From an uncultured Bacteroidales bacterium (GTDB taxonomy: Bacteria; Bacteroidota; Bacteroidia; Bacteroidales; Paludibacteraceae): 33,604 nucleotides of DNA. Shown here in pieces: positions 11,458 through 16,647 of the stretch. The stretch spans positions 1 to 33,604 of the forward strand of contig CAIYOZ010000344.1 of assembly GCA_903927945.1 (NCBI GenBank), in the 5' to 3' direction. The notes below the pieces were generated by a model that saw nothing but the letters and a program-made list of their open reading frames with translations, had not been told where the DNA came from and did not search any database. Made by a program: the position numbers and the translations under genes. The stretch's first letter is position 1. Every line of letters starts with the position of its first letter.

Positions 11458-13836
11458 ATGACAGCATCAACTTCCCATAACGTGCAGGAAAGTCTTAAAT
11501 ATCAGGTTCCACCGCCAGAGATCTTACAACTGGCTGATTATGAGCGCGCTCCATCAGTGTCGATTGACACAAAAAAAGAATATATGTTACTAAGTTATTA
11601 CAGCACCTATAAAACGCTGGAGGACTTGAATCAACAGGAAATGAGCATGGGGGGGCTGCGTGTCAATCCGGTTACAAACATCAGTTCCTCGGTGAATTAT
11701 ATTATTAACTTGAAGATATGTAAGGTAAATGAGTCGCGGTCTTTTCAGGTAAAGGGATTGCCCGATAATCCCCGCATAACTTTTGTCACCTGGTCCCCTG
11801 ATGAATCAAAGATTGCCTTTACAAATACAAATTCAAAAGGTGTTGAACTTTGGGTACTTGATGTGGCTTCAGCCGAGGCTAACCGCTTAACAAAACCGGT
11901 GATAAATGCCAATCTAGGCAATCCACTGAACTGGTTTCGCAACAGCCGGCAGTTACTGGTTCGTATATTACCTAAAGTCCGGCTGGCGTTGATTGATCCT
12001 AAAAAAGAATTGCAGGATGGTCCTACTGTATCGGTGAGTGATGGTTCTATTTCACAGAACCGTACGTATCCCGATTTGCTTAAAAACGCTTCGGACGAGA
12101 TCAATTTTATCACACTCACTTCTTCAGAATTACATAAAGTAGAGCTAAACGGAAATTCCGAGCTATTCAAAGGCGAAGATATGTATGCCGGCGAATCCTT
12201 TTCGGCCGATGGAAAATATATACTAATCACTACATTACGCAAACCATTTACGTATATTGTTCCTTTGAACCGTTTTCCTCAGCTTTCGATTGTCTACGAT
12301 CTGTCGGGGCATGAAGTGAAAACAGTGAATGATGTACCGCTTTCTGAGGTATTACCCAAAGGGTTTATGGCTGTCCGGAAAGGAAAACGGGGCTTAAGCT
12401 GGCGTCCCGATCAACCTGCAACGCTTTATTTTGTGGAAGCACTGGATGGAGGTGATCCTTCGGTAAAAGCAGAATATAGGGATGCTATCTATCAATGGAA
12501 AGCCCCATTTGAAGAGGCACCGGCTTTTATATCGAAGACAATTTCCAGGTTCTCGCACGTTATTTGGGGCAATGAGTCAGTAGCTGTACTCCAGGACGAA
12601 TGGTACGATACGCGTAATGAAAAGACCTATCTGATCAATCCGGCTAAAGCTGATCAGCACCCTCATGTCATCAATGACCGTAATTTTCAGGATGTCTATT
12701 CGGATCCCGGTAATTTTGAAACAGTTAAAAATGAATATGGCAAATACGTACTGGCCATCGAAAATAATAACTTGTATAGTGTGGGAGAGGGTCATACCCC
12801 CGAAGGACAGTTCCCTTTTATCGATGAATTCAACCTGAAAACGTTGAAAAAAAAACGGCTTTATCAATCGGCTTACACTGATAAAATGGAAGAGATCATT
12901 GATGTGGAAGATTTCATAAAAGGTGAAGCGCTGGTTCGAATCCAATCAAAAAACGAATATCCGAACTATTATTTCCGGAATATCAAAAAGAAAAATGAAT
13001 TGACGCAGATCACCCATTTCCCAAATCCTTTCGAAAGCATCAAGGATGTCTATAAAGAAGTGATTAAGTATAAAAGGGCCGATGGGGTGGAACTGTCGGG
13101 TACTTTATACTTGCCGGTTGGCTATGACCGGATCAAAAAGGAAAAACTACCTTTGCTTATCTGGGCTTACCCGGCCGAATATAAAGACAAGCAAAGTGCC
13201 GGACAGAGTACCGCCAACTCCAATGAGTTTACTTTCCCATATTATGGTTCTTTTGTGTATTGGGTAACAAGAGGGTATGCTGTGCTCGACGATGCAGCCT
13301 TCCCGATAATTGGTGAAGGTAAAATCGAACCGAACGATACATTTATCGAACAGTTAGTTTCGAATGCCAAAGCAGCCATCGATGCAGTAGACAAACTAGG
13401 TTTCATTGACCGGAAGAAAGTGGCGGTAGGCGGACATTCATACGGTGCCTTTATGACGGCAAACCTGTTGACCCATTGCGACCTCTTTGCCTGTGGTATT
13501 GCACGCAGTGGGGCTTATAACCGGACATTGACCCCCTTTGGTTTTCAGAGCGAACAGCGAAATTACTGGGATGCCCCTGAAGCCTATAATGCCATGTCTC
13601 CATTTATGAATGCCGACAAAATGAAAATACCGATATTGCTTGTCCATGGTGAAGCTGACAATAATCCGGGAACATTCACCCTGCAAACTGAGCGTTACTT
13701 CCAGGCTTTAAAGGGGTTGGGTGCTCAGGCCCGCATGCTGATATTACCCAAGGAAGCGCATAGTTATGTGGCACGGGAAAATATACTGCACCTGTTGTGG
13801 GAACAGGATAAGTTTTTGGAGAAATACCTGAAATGA
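11458..13836 (+). CDS. S9 family serine peptidase, glutamyl endopeptidase-like (S9D)
   Basis: 792 aa. The N-terminal two thirds is a beta-propeller-like region; the C-terminal ~250 residues form the alpha/beta-hydrolase domain. The nucleophile elbow is GGHSYGAF (Ser661), with probable Asp734 in HGEADNNPG and His768 in KEAHSY. The segment CGIARSGAYNRTLTPFGFQ and the N-terminal YxxPPxEI motif match the S9D group that includes plant chloroplast glutamyl endopeptidase, so cleavage after Glu is likely; this is family inference from memory. No signal peptide is seen and an in-frame TAA lies just upstream of the ATG, so the product appears cytoplasmic. It stands alone between a divergent promoter region and the RAYT repeat array. 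Confidence 0.9.
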   Translation: MTASTSHNVQESLKYQVPPPEILQLADYERAPSVSIDTKKEYMLLSYYSTYKTLEDLNQQEMSMGGLRVNPVTNISSSVNYIINLKICKVNESRSFQVKGLPDNPRITFVTWSPDESKIAFTNTNSKGVELWVLDVASAEANRLTKPVINANLGNPLNWFRNSRQLLVRILPKVRLALIDPKKELQDGPTVSVSDGSISQNRTYPDLLKNASDEINFITLTSSELHKVELNGNSELFKGEDMYAGESFSADGKYILITTLRKPFTYIVPLNRFPQLSIVYDLSGHEVKTVNDVPLSEVLPKGFMAVRKGKRGLSWRPDQPATLYFVEALDGGDPSVKAEYRDAIYQWKAPFEEAPAFISKTISRFSHVIWGNESVAVLQDEWYDTRNEKTYLINPAKADQHPHVINDRNFQDVYSDPGNFETVKNEYGKYVLAIENNNLYSVGEGHTPEGQFPFIDEFNLKTLKKKRLYQSAYTDKMEEIIDVEDFIKGEALVRIQSKNEYPNYYFRNIKKKNELTQITHFPNPFESIKDVYKEVIKYKRADGVELSGTLYLPVGYDRIKKEKLPLLIWAYPAEYKDKQSAGQSTANSNEFTFPYYGSFVYWVTRGYAVLDDAAFPIIGEGKIEPNDTFIEQLVSNAKAAIDAVDKLGFIDRKKVAVGGHSYGAFMTANLLTHCDLFACGIARSGAYNRTLTPFGFQSEQRNYWDAPEAYNAMSPFMNADKMKIPILLVHGEADNNPGTFTLQTERYFQALKGLGAQARMLILPKEAHSYVARENILHLLWEQDKFLEKYLK

Positions 13837-13850
13837 CTTTTCATTTTTCA

Positions 13851-14338
13851 ACCGCTGTCAACCGCTGTCAGAGTCCTTCGGACTGCTGACAGGGTTGTCT
13901 GCTCTGATAGTGTATTCAGTTCTTATTAGCAGTTGACGATGTTCTTACCAGAATAAAAATATAAATACTAAATTAATTACAAGGAAAATATCAGATCGTT
14001 GATGGTGACTTATTAACTTTGCATAATAGTGGACGTAGTTCATCAGCAGTTGAAGATTTTCTTGCGAGATTAAAAATAAATCCTAAATAAATATTCATTA
14101 ATTACAAAGAAATTATCCGATTGTTGATGATGATTTATCAACTCTGACAGCGGACGCAGTCCCTGTCAGCAGTTGATAAAGGAGAAATATAAATTCGTAA
14201 TATTTATCCCATTCGTGGCATGAATTTTCTCAAATCAAACCGCTTTAATTGAACTAAATCATGATTTTAATGTTAATAGTTTGTCAACTCTGACAGCGGA
14301 CGCAGTCCCTTTCAGTAGTTGTAGTCTGTCAGCAGTTG
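13851..14338. repeat. REP-like hairpin array upstream of the RAYT gene
   Basis: This fills the 516-bp gap after the peptidase gene. It holds one type A hairpin (13859-13897: CAACC-G-CTGTCAG-A-GTCC-TTC-GGAC-TG-CTGACAG-GGTTG), preceded by a 10-bp tandem duplication ACCGCTGTCA. It also holds four type B copies: a decayed one at 13902-13935, a decayed one at about 14014-14052, an intact one at 14139-14175 whose stem extends to TTTATCAACT/AGTTGATAAA (14134-14180), and one at 14285-14321. A further half copy, CTGTCAGCAGTTGAA, is at 14325-14338. Type B reads CAACT-CTGACAG-C-GGAC-GCA-GTCC-CTGTCAG-C-AGTTG. Such palindromes beside a RAYT gene are the expected substrates of that transposase family. Confidence 0.85.
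13928..14166. repeat. Degenerate tandem duplication, period 117 bp
   Basis: The segment starting AGCAGTTGACGATGTTCTT at 13928 recurs in diverged form at 14045 (AGCAGTTGAAGATTTTCTT). Both contain an (A)AATTACAA-rich middle, then a GTTGATG-containing stretch, and each ends in a type B hairpin copy. The copies carry many substitutions, so the duplication is old. Confidence 0.65.
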
Positions 14339-14352
14339 AATAGGATGAATAG

Positions 14353-15000
14353 GTGAAAAAATTAAATCATAGCTATATGGATGAATTTTTTGAACCCAAG
14401 GTCAATTACAATTCTGTTTACAATATATTTAATTGTGGCATTAATGGCTGCGATGTATTTATTGACGACGAAGATTACGATCACTTTCTGTCGAAATACT
14501 CAAAATATATCGAACCTATTGCCGATACCTATGCCTTGAGCTTGTTAGGAAATCATTTTCATCTGGTCATCCGAATAAAAAAAGAATCCGAAATCAGCAC
14601 ATTAGAAGAACTTGGTCTTTTGGAAGAGCGAACTACTTTACGTACTCCCGGTAAAAAACCGGATCCTTCCCGCCAATTTTCGCACTTATTCAATTTTCAT
14701 GCCCAATACTTCAATCACAAATACAAGCGTCACGGAAACCTTTTTGAACGACCATTCAAAAGAAAATTGATTGACAACCGTGCTTATTTTAAGCGGTGTT
14801 TGATTTATGTGCATCAAAACCCTGTTAAACATGGTTTTGTTGAATGCCTGTCCGATTATAGATATACCTCATACAATACCATTTTATCAGATAAAGTAAC
14901 ACACCTGAAAAGAGATCGGGTGCTGACGTTCTTCGGTGATCGGTCTGATTTTGAACTGTCACATTCAAAAATTGTAAGCTTAGTCGAAACATTCGAATGA
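14353..15000 (+). CDS. REP-associated tyrosine transposase (RAYT, Y1_Tnp/HUH family)
   Basis: 215 aa from a GTG at 14353, preceded directly by an in-frame TAG. An ATG at 14377 is an alternative start and gives an N-terminus more like other RAYTs. The HUH metal-binding motif is GNHFHLVIR (His68, His70), and the probable catalytic tyrosine is Tyr152 in IYVHQNPVKHG, the typical YxHxNPVKxG motif. Family members nick single-stranded DNA at REP palindromes and are thought to spread them as non-autonomous repeats. The gene is bracketed by REP-like hairpins on both sides, the diagnostic RAYT context. The reading frame is intact and key residues are present, so it may be active. The half hairpin just ahead of the start (14325-14338) could affect expression. 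Confidence 0.92.
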   Translation: MKKLNHSYMDEFFEPKVNYNSVYNIFNCGINGCDVFIDDEDYDHFLSKYSKYIEPIADTYALSLLGNHFHLVIRIKKESEISTLEELGLLEERTTLRTPGKKPDPSRQFSHLFNFHAQYFNHKYKRHGNLFERPFKRKLIDNRAYFKRCLIYVHQNPVKHGFVECLSDYRYTSYNTILSDKVTHLKRDRVLTFFGDRSDFELSHSKIVSLVETFE

Positions 15001-15004
15001 ACGG

Positions 15005-15084
15005 CAACCGCTGTCAGAGTCCTTCGGACTGCCGACATGGTTGTTGTCAAACTCTGACAGCGGACGCAGTCCCTGTCAGCAGTT
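15005..15084. repeat. REP-like hairpin pair downstream of the RAYT gene
   Basis: A type A hairpin (15005-15043) with a decayed right arm (CCGACAT in place of CTGACAG) is followed after 4 bases by a well-preserved type B hairpin (15048-15084). The A-then-B order with a 4-base gap repeats the arrangement at 13859-13935, so A-B pairs bracket the transposase as direct repeats. The type A hairpin begins 5 bases after the RAYT stop codon and may also shape the 3' end of its transcript. Confidence 0.85.
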
Positions 15085-15125
15085 AAAAGCTGTCATCTTC
15101 AAATCAATCCTTGAACCCTAAAACC

Positions 15126-15198: not shown

Positions 15199-16647
15199 TT
15201 ACAGGCTCTCTCCAAAATCCTCTTTGAATTTCGCCATTAACTTCACAGGCCAGTCGCTGGTAGGTTCCAGTCCACCCATAAAGAAACGCAATACTGGTGG
15301 TTCGTACACGAATCGCAATCCGCCGATCAGCAGGCGATTGTCGTACAACCAGTTCAGACGGTCTTCCACATACTTGATCTGTGACAATGTAAACACGCGT
15401 CGGGGAACAGCCAGGCGAAGCAATTCCATGTCGGCATAGGTTTCGTTACCATACTCATCCCGTTGGTTGGAAATCGAGCCGCGTTCCATGCCACGAACCC
15501 CGGAGATCAAAAACAAAGCCGATGCCAGTGCGCCTGCCGGATATTCTGTCTGTGGAATGTGGGCGCAAAACTGCATGGCATCCACATGGGCTCCCAGTAC
15601 CCCTGCTGGTTTAATCACCGGAATACCTTTTCCATCCAGGGCATCCACCAGGTATTTGATAAACGATGGACTCTGGCAGATCATGCTTTCATCCAGGGTT
15701 TCGTACAGACCCACTGCCATGGCTTCAATCTCACGGATGGAGATACCGCCATAAGTCAGGAATCCTTCATATAAAGGAACCAATGCTTCCAGTTCTTTAT
15801 AGATCGTCATATTATCGGTACACATGCCACCACCGCGCGAGGAGCTCAGTTTACGGGCCGAGAAGTATACCAGGTCGGCCATGCCGGTCATGATTTTAAT
15901 GATCTCGCCCATGTTCGAGTCTTTGAACTCTTCCTCGCGTTTGAGTACCAGGTAGGCGTTTTCTCCCAGTAAACTGGCATCAAGCACCAGGCGGATACCG
16001 TATTTGTCAGCCATGGCGCGTACATCACGTAAGTTCTGAATGGAGAAAGGTTGTCCGCCAATCAGGTTGGTGGAAGCTTCCATGCGGATAAAGGGAATAT
16101 TATTGGCACCATGATGTTTGATCGTTTCCTCGAGTTTCTCGATGTTCATGTTCCCTTTGAAAGGATGGTCGGAGTTGATCTTATAAGCTTCGTCGTATAA
16201 CAGCTCGGCAATTTTACCACCGTTTTGGGTGATATGCGCCATAGCGGTGGTGAAGTGGTAGTTCATGGGCACCAGGCTGCCTTTTTTTATGTAGGCGGTC
16301 GAAATGATGTTTTCGGCAGCACGTCCCTGGTGGACAGGGAGCAAAAGTTTCTTGCCTAATACATCTTCCACAGCCTTTTGAAGGCGAATGAAACTTTGTG
16401 AACCTGCGTAAGCATCATCGGCTTGCATCATGGCAGCCAGTTGGTTATCGCTCATGGCATTGGTGCCGCTGTCGGTCAGCATGTCCAGGAAGACATCCAG
16501 GGTGCTCAGGCGGAAAGTGTTGAATCCCCCTTCGTAGAGTGCTTCCAGACGACGTTCGATAGGTACCAGGTTTAATTTTTGTACGATGCGTACTTTGTGA
16601 AGTTCCAACGGGATCGTTTCACCGCTGTAAAATTTGATTTCTTGCAT
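15199..16647 (-). CDS. PLP-dependent beta-eliminating lyase, tyrosine phenol-lyase-like
   Basis: 482 aa, tryptophanase/tyrosine phenol-lyase family (456-471 aa typical). The enzymes split tyrosine or tryptophan into phenol or indole plus pyruvate and ammonia in the cytoplasm. Conserved here: LTDSGTNAMSD, HQGRAAE (106-112), Asn194 before GGQP, Asp223 (PLP ring nitrogen), Lys266 in FSARKL (PLP Schiff base) and Arg411 in RLAVPRRV. Two residues that separate phenol-lyase from tryptophanase favour phenol-lyase: Arg389 in GVRGMERG (Tpl Arg381, Ile in tryptophanase) and Phe455 in VLRFF (Tpl Phe448, His in tryptophanase). Unusual: the DATR/DSAR arginine contacting PLP is Leu226 (DASL), and SSSRGGG replaces the usual segment after the PLP lysine. 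The start is preceded by a long leader with a hairpin. Substrate should be considered open. Confidence 0.8.
   Translation of the reverse strand: MQEIKFYSGETIPLELHKVRIVQKLNLVPIERRLEALYEGGFNTFRLSTLDVFLDMLTDSGTNAMSDNQLAAMMQADDAYAGSQSFIRLQKAVEDVLGKKLLLPVHQGRAAENIISTAYIKKGSLVPMNYHFTTAMAHITQNGGKIAELLYDEAYKINSDHPFKGNMNIEKLEETIKHHGANNIPFIRMEASTNLIGGQPFSIQNLRDVRAMADKYGIRLVLDASLLGENAYLVLKREEEFKDSNMGEIIKIMTGMADLVYFSARKLSSSRGGGMCTDNMTIYKELEALVPLYEGFLTYGGISIREIEAMAVGLYETLDESMICQSPSFIKYLVDALDGKGIPVIKPAGVLGAHVDAMQFCAHIPQTEYPAGALASALFLISGVRGMERGSISNQRDEYGNETYADMELLRLAVPRRVFTLSQIKYVEDRLNWLYDNRLLIGGLRFVYEPPVLRFFMGGLEPTSDWPVKLMAKFKEDFGESL

Follow-up and report, generated by a model that had tools for sequence, protein, structure and literature searches.

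A RAYT gene amid arm-swapped, double-bulge REP hairpins in an uncultured Bacteroidales bacterium

The stretch of DNA analyzed here (33,604 nt; hereafter ‘the window’) constitutes contig C344 of a Bacteroidales draft genome (4.47 Mb in 450 contigs, with 4.6% contamination; the host genome, G000). Between an S9 peptidase gene (11458–13836, + strand) and a beta-eliminating lyase gene (15199–16647, − strand), it harbors a RAYT gene within an array of REP hairpins, composed of the following features:

13849–13868, + strand: 10-bp tandem duplication CAACCGCTGT (repeat family D8), the left edge of the array, ~12 bp past the stop of the S9 peptidase gene
13859–13897, + strand: REP type A, intact, CAACC-G-CTGTCAG-AGTCC-TTC-GGACT-G-CTGACAG-GGTTG; 37.8 bits with the covariance model
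13895–13936, − strand: REP type B, decayed; 71% identity to B, weak DNA fold
14017–14053, − strand: REP type B remnant, decayed (repeat families D5 and D7)
14139–14175, − strand: REP type B, intact, CAACT-G-CTGACAG-GGAC-TGC-GTCC-G-CTGTCAG-AGTTG as read on the − strand; 46.0 bits, supported by DNA folding
14285–14321, − strand: REP type B carrying a single mismatched pair; 33.7 bits
14323–14340, − strand: REP type B, truncated (repeat family D7)
14353–15000, + strand: RAYT (TnpAREP-like Y1 HUH transposase), 215 aa, GTG start, catalytic NHFH and YVHQNP intact
15005–15043, + strand: REP type A with two changed bases, opening the right A-B pair; 20.3 bits
15050–15084, − strand: REP type B, intact, closing the right A-B pair; 46.0 bits

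Within this interval, the covariance model matched type A at 13861–13895 (+) and, weakly and with two changed bases, at 15007–15041 (+), and type B at 14141–14173 (−), 14287–14319 (−, one mismatch), and 15051–15083 (−). Five hairpins of the array are well formed and another two or three are decayed; the at least seven hairpins counted in a first-pass annotation of this DNA are reached only if remnants are included. The direct repeat which that annotation had seen bracketing the RAYT gene is real (13859–13898 and 15005–15044, 95% identical over 40 nt). Of the A-B pairs it placed on both sides, the right one is well preserved, whereas the left one consists of an intact A followed by the decayed, merely B-like copy; the symmetry of the array is partly lost because of this decay. 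The tandem duplication at the left edge may be a footprint left by REP insertion or by slippage.

The RAYT frame is open over all 215 codons and both motifs noted at first pass, HFH and YVHQNP, are in place, with NHFH at residues 67–70 and Tyr152 as the tyrosine of YVHQNP. The NCBIfam model NF047646 (REP_Tyr_transpos) was matched by all 58 family members, the window RAYT itself only weakly, its 49.7 bits falling below the cut-off of 80. A Pfam search with the window RAYT alone returned no match, PF01797 included; 24 of the 58 members matched PF01797 at E ≤ 0.01. Sequence comparison to the PDB linked the protein to E. coli TnpAREP (4er8) with an E-value of 0.0013, or 1.7e-5 when the 58-member profile was used. 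An AlphaFold model (pLDDT 90.9) found its best PDB fold match in the same structure, a complex of E. coli TnpAREP with a REP hairpin (E 2.2e-7), followed by the IS200, ISDra2, and IS608 transposases. Conservation of the HUH and Tyr positions extends across an aligned set of 112 relatives. W94-Q95 of E. coli TnpAREP, which two studies place in the GTAG-contacting region (PMC6006769, PMC8266576), corresponds to F131-E132 in the window RAYT and to F/E in nearly all family members; the position of E. coli E100 is occupied by Arg137, and by Arg in 110 of the 112 relatives. Ser173, the Ser motif after the core, is present, and an extra segment of the model sits between beta3 (68–75) and alphaC (105–123). 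By predicted fold, motif, and association with dispersed REPs, the window protein is a RAYT with predicted activity, which bears out the RAYT/REP reading of the locus.

The REPs share a plan of a foot stem, an extrahelical base, a 7-bp stem, a small apical hairpin, the same extrahelical base again, and the other 7-bp arm. Read on the strand with the extrahelical G, types A and B both take the form foot-G-CTGWCAG-apical hairpin-G-CTGWCAG-foot, with A lying on the plus and B on the minus strand of the window and the 7-bp stem arms exchanged between them. The two hairpin types of the first-pass annotation are not unrelated but represent one architecture with swapped stem arms, a point which that annotation missed. 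The GTRG tetranucleotide was absent from the foot of the REPs; instead, the 5’ motif outside the paired foot reads TTCA in the window family and AAGAA in the CTTT/AAAG families. An Rfam search with the hairpins returned chance-level matches only, and no family fits.

Searched with a covariance model of this plan, the host genome yielded about 106 places at E ≤ 1, a rough number because only 150 of 680 candidate places were scored. Copies were located by model and pattern searches and the matching stretches searched again, which re-found 110 copies at 62 sites on 44 contigs. ORFs of 130 aa and longer make up 66% of these stretches, yet only seven of the copies fall within one. Dispersed, mostly intergenic copies, proposed at first pass as the mark of active spread, do exist for the hairpin plan, and the hairpins are not confined to the RAYT locus. 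For the window's own type the picture is weaker, with only about six dispersed copies carrying its ACC/ACT foot. The extrahelical bases were identical in 97 of the 110 copies (76 G/G, 21 T/T), and the stems CTCAAAG and CTTTTGG each occurred with either G/G or T/T. Hairpin pairs of the CTGWCAG pattern numbered 28 in the genome, as opposed to none for a reversed control pattern, and so exceed chance. The window itself contains a lone REP of another family (548–580, + strand; CTCAAAG stem, T/T bulges, 25.8 bits), located just past the stop of an ORF on the minus strand (598–1938).

REPs frequently occurred as neighbors. Among 42 host-genome pairs separated by a gap of up to 60 nt, 33 were inverted and nine had the same orientation. 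We scored a pair as swapped when the 5’ arm of one REP was more similar to the partner's 3’ arm than to the partner's 5’ arm. On this definition, 29 of the inverted pairs were swapped, two unswapped, and two tied (16 versus one when distinct stem combinations are counted), and all nine same-orientation pairs were unswapped. Other genomes gave 28 swapped versus six unswapped pairs (13 versus three distinct combinations), with the exceptions including loci L062 and L072. Strict pairing percentages computed from rows that had been selected for pairing are biased. The swap is no artefact of mistaken orientation, since a perfectly paired 5’ arm reads identically from either strand. Folding with DNA parameters showed real inverted pairs to gain a mean of 3.7 kcal/mol over two separate hairpins, so that cross-pairing and the formation of two local hairpins are close to equally favorable. 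Artificial unswapped pairs gained ~30 kcal/mol, and so would zip into one long hairpin, the REPIN form (PMC3116915). The swap may serve to prevent zipping into a single hairpin, and the two extrahelical bases, symmetric about the 7-bp stem, would suit a two-fold site.

The first-pass annotation had described a single RAYT and missed four further paralogs: the host genome encodes five related RAYT genes, four of them 39–48% identical to that of the window. Four of the five, those of the window and of contigs C80, C287, and C364, are flanked by hairpins of the double-bulge plan, with stems CTGACAT and CTGTCAG at the C80 gene, CTTTCGT and CTTAAAG at C287, and CTTTTGG and CCCAAAG at C364, where an extrahelical T replaces G. 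The fifth gene, on C105, is accompanied by perfect hairpins of the AACTTTTCCAAAGT type, including one within the gene itself. Five related enzymes in one genome, four with separable hairpin families (bulge base, stem, and 5’ motif), constitute a natural specificity matrix. Weaker RAYT-like matches, covering part of the query at 25–47% identity, lie on contigs C234, C114, C355, C375, and C26; the one on C355 contains one stop codon.

Across congeners, the exact type-A hairpin tracks the orthologous RAYT: three of the four genomes encoding one have it, as opposed to 0 of the 44 that do not (Fisher p 2.3e-4). The three are the host, G032, and G034 (RAYT identities of 100, 71, and 72%, respectively); the fourth, G014, with a 59% identical ortholog, carries variant copies. 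This exact hairpin is therefore not equally common in relatives lacking an orthologous RAYT, which the first-pass annotation had named as an outcome that would speak against its view. The orthologs of the three congeners (59–72% identical) all have intact frames. A RAYT identical to the window's is present at the same contig position in L057, a public MAG labelled Paludibacter jiangxiensis, which makes a Paludibacter-like member of the Bacteroidales the most likely host, and a further congener, G002, encodes a RAYT at 76102–76719 of its contig C6. REPs of the C80 type accompany a 75% identical ortholog in G065 and also exist as orphans in five congeners (G005, G007, G030, G024, and G019) in which we detected no orthologous RAYT, implying that hairpins outlive the enzyme or spread without it. 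Two REP sites on host contig C179 have REP-free alleles at the orthologous intergenic positions of congeners: G007 and G062 lack a REP at site 1, where G005 has a single one, and both G007 and G005 lack REPs at site 2. Such alleles do not distinguish insertion from loss, and could be losses.

Among the wider relatives, the hairpin class at 112 RAYT loci was perfect in 67 cases and double-bulge in 28, with no hairpin detected in 17, which led us to reject the idea of one class for all; on the RAYT tree the classes cluster, yet change several times. At 80 loci, 35 double-bulge hairpins fell within 800 bp of the gene, as compared to two in the 299 kb of farther flank, and CTGWCAG hairpins behaved alike (48 within 800 bp, at 23 of the 80 loci, versus three in the 299 kb farther away). 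In many relatives, the RAYT gene itself contains in-frame REPs, and 31 of 40 such REPs fall between the HUH and Tyr motifs. They are found in L048, L072, L092, L131, and about 25 others, mostly ~20 codons past the HUH motif, and some form complete inverted pairs. At many Flavobacterium loci (L039–L118), the gene is flanked on either side by exactly one perfect hairpin, often with AACCCTGWCAGGGTT-type arms, reminiscent of the left and right ends of an IS.

How does this system relate to those already described? A Bacteroidetes REP-RAYT group is on record (Quentin et al. 2018, PMC6006769). That study reports ‘atypical’ structures on the flanks of Bacteroidetes genes of its subclass 2.6, with further copies at other places in the genome; systems of this sort are thus already known to exist. 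The parts of PMC6006769 covered here yielded no description of a double extrahelical base or of swapped arms; priority for drawing double-bulge hairpins is uncertain. Subclass 2.6 (RAYT group 5) has in common with our system its occurrence in Bacteroidetes, a YIH[QN]NP motif, a HUH-Tyr distance of ~82, the Ser motif, and REPs without GTRG, but differs in having NH[LIV]H (here NHFH), WQ (here FE), and an insertion of ~21 aa between alphaC and beta4, where the window model has its extra segment between beta3 and alphaC. Subclass 2.4 (RAYT group 4), as presented there, shares NH[IFV]H, a beta3-alphaC insertion, frequency in Bacteroidetes, and in-frame REPs between HUH and Tyr, as in the relatives of the window RAYT; such in-gene REPs are reported as unique to it. 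Its W/Q and GTRG-type REPs are absent here, the conserved Ser tail is extra, and its YIxNNP pattern compares with YVHQNP/YIHNNP in our family. Filing under subclass 2.6, first favored on the strength of YIH[QN]NP, was weakened by the position of the insertion in the model (beta3-alphaC), by the missing W/Q pair, and by the REPs found within genes. Within the published scheme, the window system mixes features of subclasses 2.4 and 2.6, without the W/Q pair and the GTRG of canonical REPs.

With the E. coli REPtron and its BIMEs (4er8; PMC8266576), the system shares the HUH/Tyr fold, a hairpin with unpaired bases, inverted pairs, and intergenic spread; it differs by lacking a GTAG 5’ motif, by its two like extrahelical bases about a 7-bp stem, and by the swapped arms of partners. 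As in Pseudomonas REPINs, inverted REP doublets are the usual unit, but REPINs are symmetric and form one long hairpin (Bertels and Rainey 2011, PMC3116915), which the arm swap removes here; the pairs do not qualify as REPINs, being inverted but arm-swapped. IS200/IS605 elements (IS608, ISDra2) likewise combine the Y1 transposase fold with hairpins containing a flipped-out base. They would be expected as multi-copy, near-identical elements, whereas here each RAYT is present in a single copy per genome (other host-genome matches to the window RAYT are at most 48% identical), no tnpB was seen beside the gene, and there are many REPs, in inverted pairs, rather than one left and one right end.

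Taken together, these observations probably reflect a REPtron-like system of Bacteroidales, in which a domesticated Y1 HUH transposase acts on cognate REP hairpins. We infer binding, cutting, and copying of REPs by the RAYT, together with a choice of strand, along the following lines. A REP in transiently single-stranded DNA would fold into its hairpin, and the RAYT would recognize the 7-bp stem with its two like extrahelical bases, one before each arm, as well as a short 5’ motif (TTCA before the foot in the window family, AAGAA in sister families). Tyr152 and the HUH metal site would then cut and rejoin next to the REP, so that REPs could be copied or moved, usually as inverted A-B pairs. 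Owing to the swapped arms, an A-B pair would be unable to zip into a long perfect hairpin, and both REP hairpins would stay available.

The first-pass annotation likened the locus to a mobile unit with direct A-B repeats at its edges, a view that finds partial support. RAYT and repeats might form an IS200-like element with the repeats as its ends, the dispersed hairpins being by-products. In its favor, the gene lies between the two copies of the direct repeat, single perfect hairpins occur on either side of the gene in many Flavobacterium relatives, and the locus is absent or elsewhere in congeners: both flanking genes are adjacent without a RAYT in between, 136, 184, and 1031 bp apart in G015, G027, and G032, respectively. 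The orthologs' neighbors, named by eye from translations, differ as well, with a hexosaminidase-like gene adjoining the G032 ortholog, ABC transporter-like genes that of G014, and, next to the same peptidase, a different gene on the right in G034. However, about 100 hairpins stand against five genes, the paralogs are merely 39–48% alike, and the congener comparison revealed no exact insertion or empty-site boundary, which could not be drawn because the flanks are too diverged. With one copy of each RAYT per genome and no exact boundary, the evidence favors spread of the REPs over movement of the unit as a whole, and we consider an IS200-like element rather improbable.

The intergenic position of the hairpins is also where transcription terminators would be expected. 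That they are ordinary terminators or regulatory structures unrelated to transposition is very improbable, though, given that the hairpin type is tied to an orthologous RAYT, that the conservation of unpaired bases, 5’ motif, and stem arms exceeds the requirements of a terminator, that no Rfam family fits, and that copies also sit in frame within the RAYT genes of relatives. Less remote, but still unlikely, is an inactive RAYT whose array is a relic of past spread. The decayed REPs of the array, the few dispersed copies of the window type, and the survival of C80-type REPs without enzyme would all fit, but the window RAYT has retained its frame and catalytic residues, and three congeners hold intact orthologs with matching REPs.

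Returning to the REPtron-like reading, a more specific version is conceivable, which we advance tentatively: this Bacteroidota RAYT group may read the symmetric extrahelical bases as a dimer-like site with no GTAG guide, its REPs spreading as arm-swapped, non-zipping pairs and each paralog reading its own bulge base, stem, and 5’ motif. This touches on two open general questions, how REPs spread and how a RAYT recognizes its own REP. To our knowledge, experimental work on either has been confined to GTAG-type proteobacterial systems. The arm swap, in turn, clearly predicts how the transposed unit should be structured.

Weak matches to the REP model were additionally recovered from G028, G009, and G026 (77, 44, and 35 matches, respectively; best E about 5e-4), perhaps representing another palindromic repeat family.
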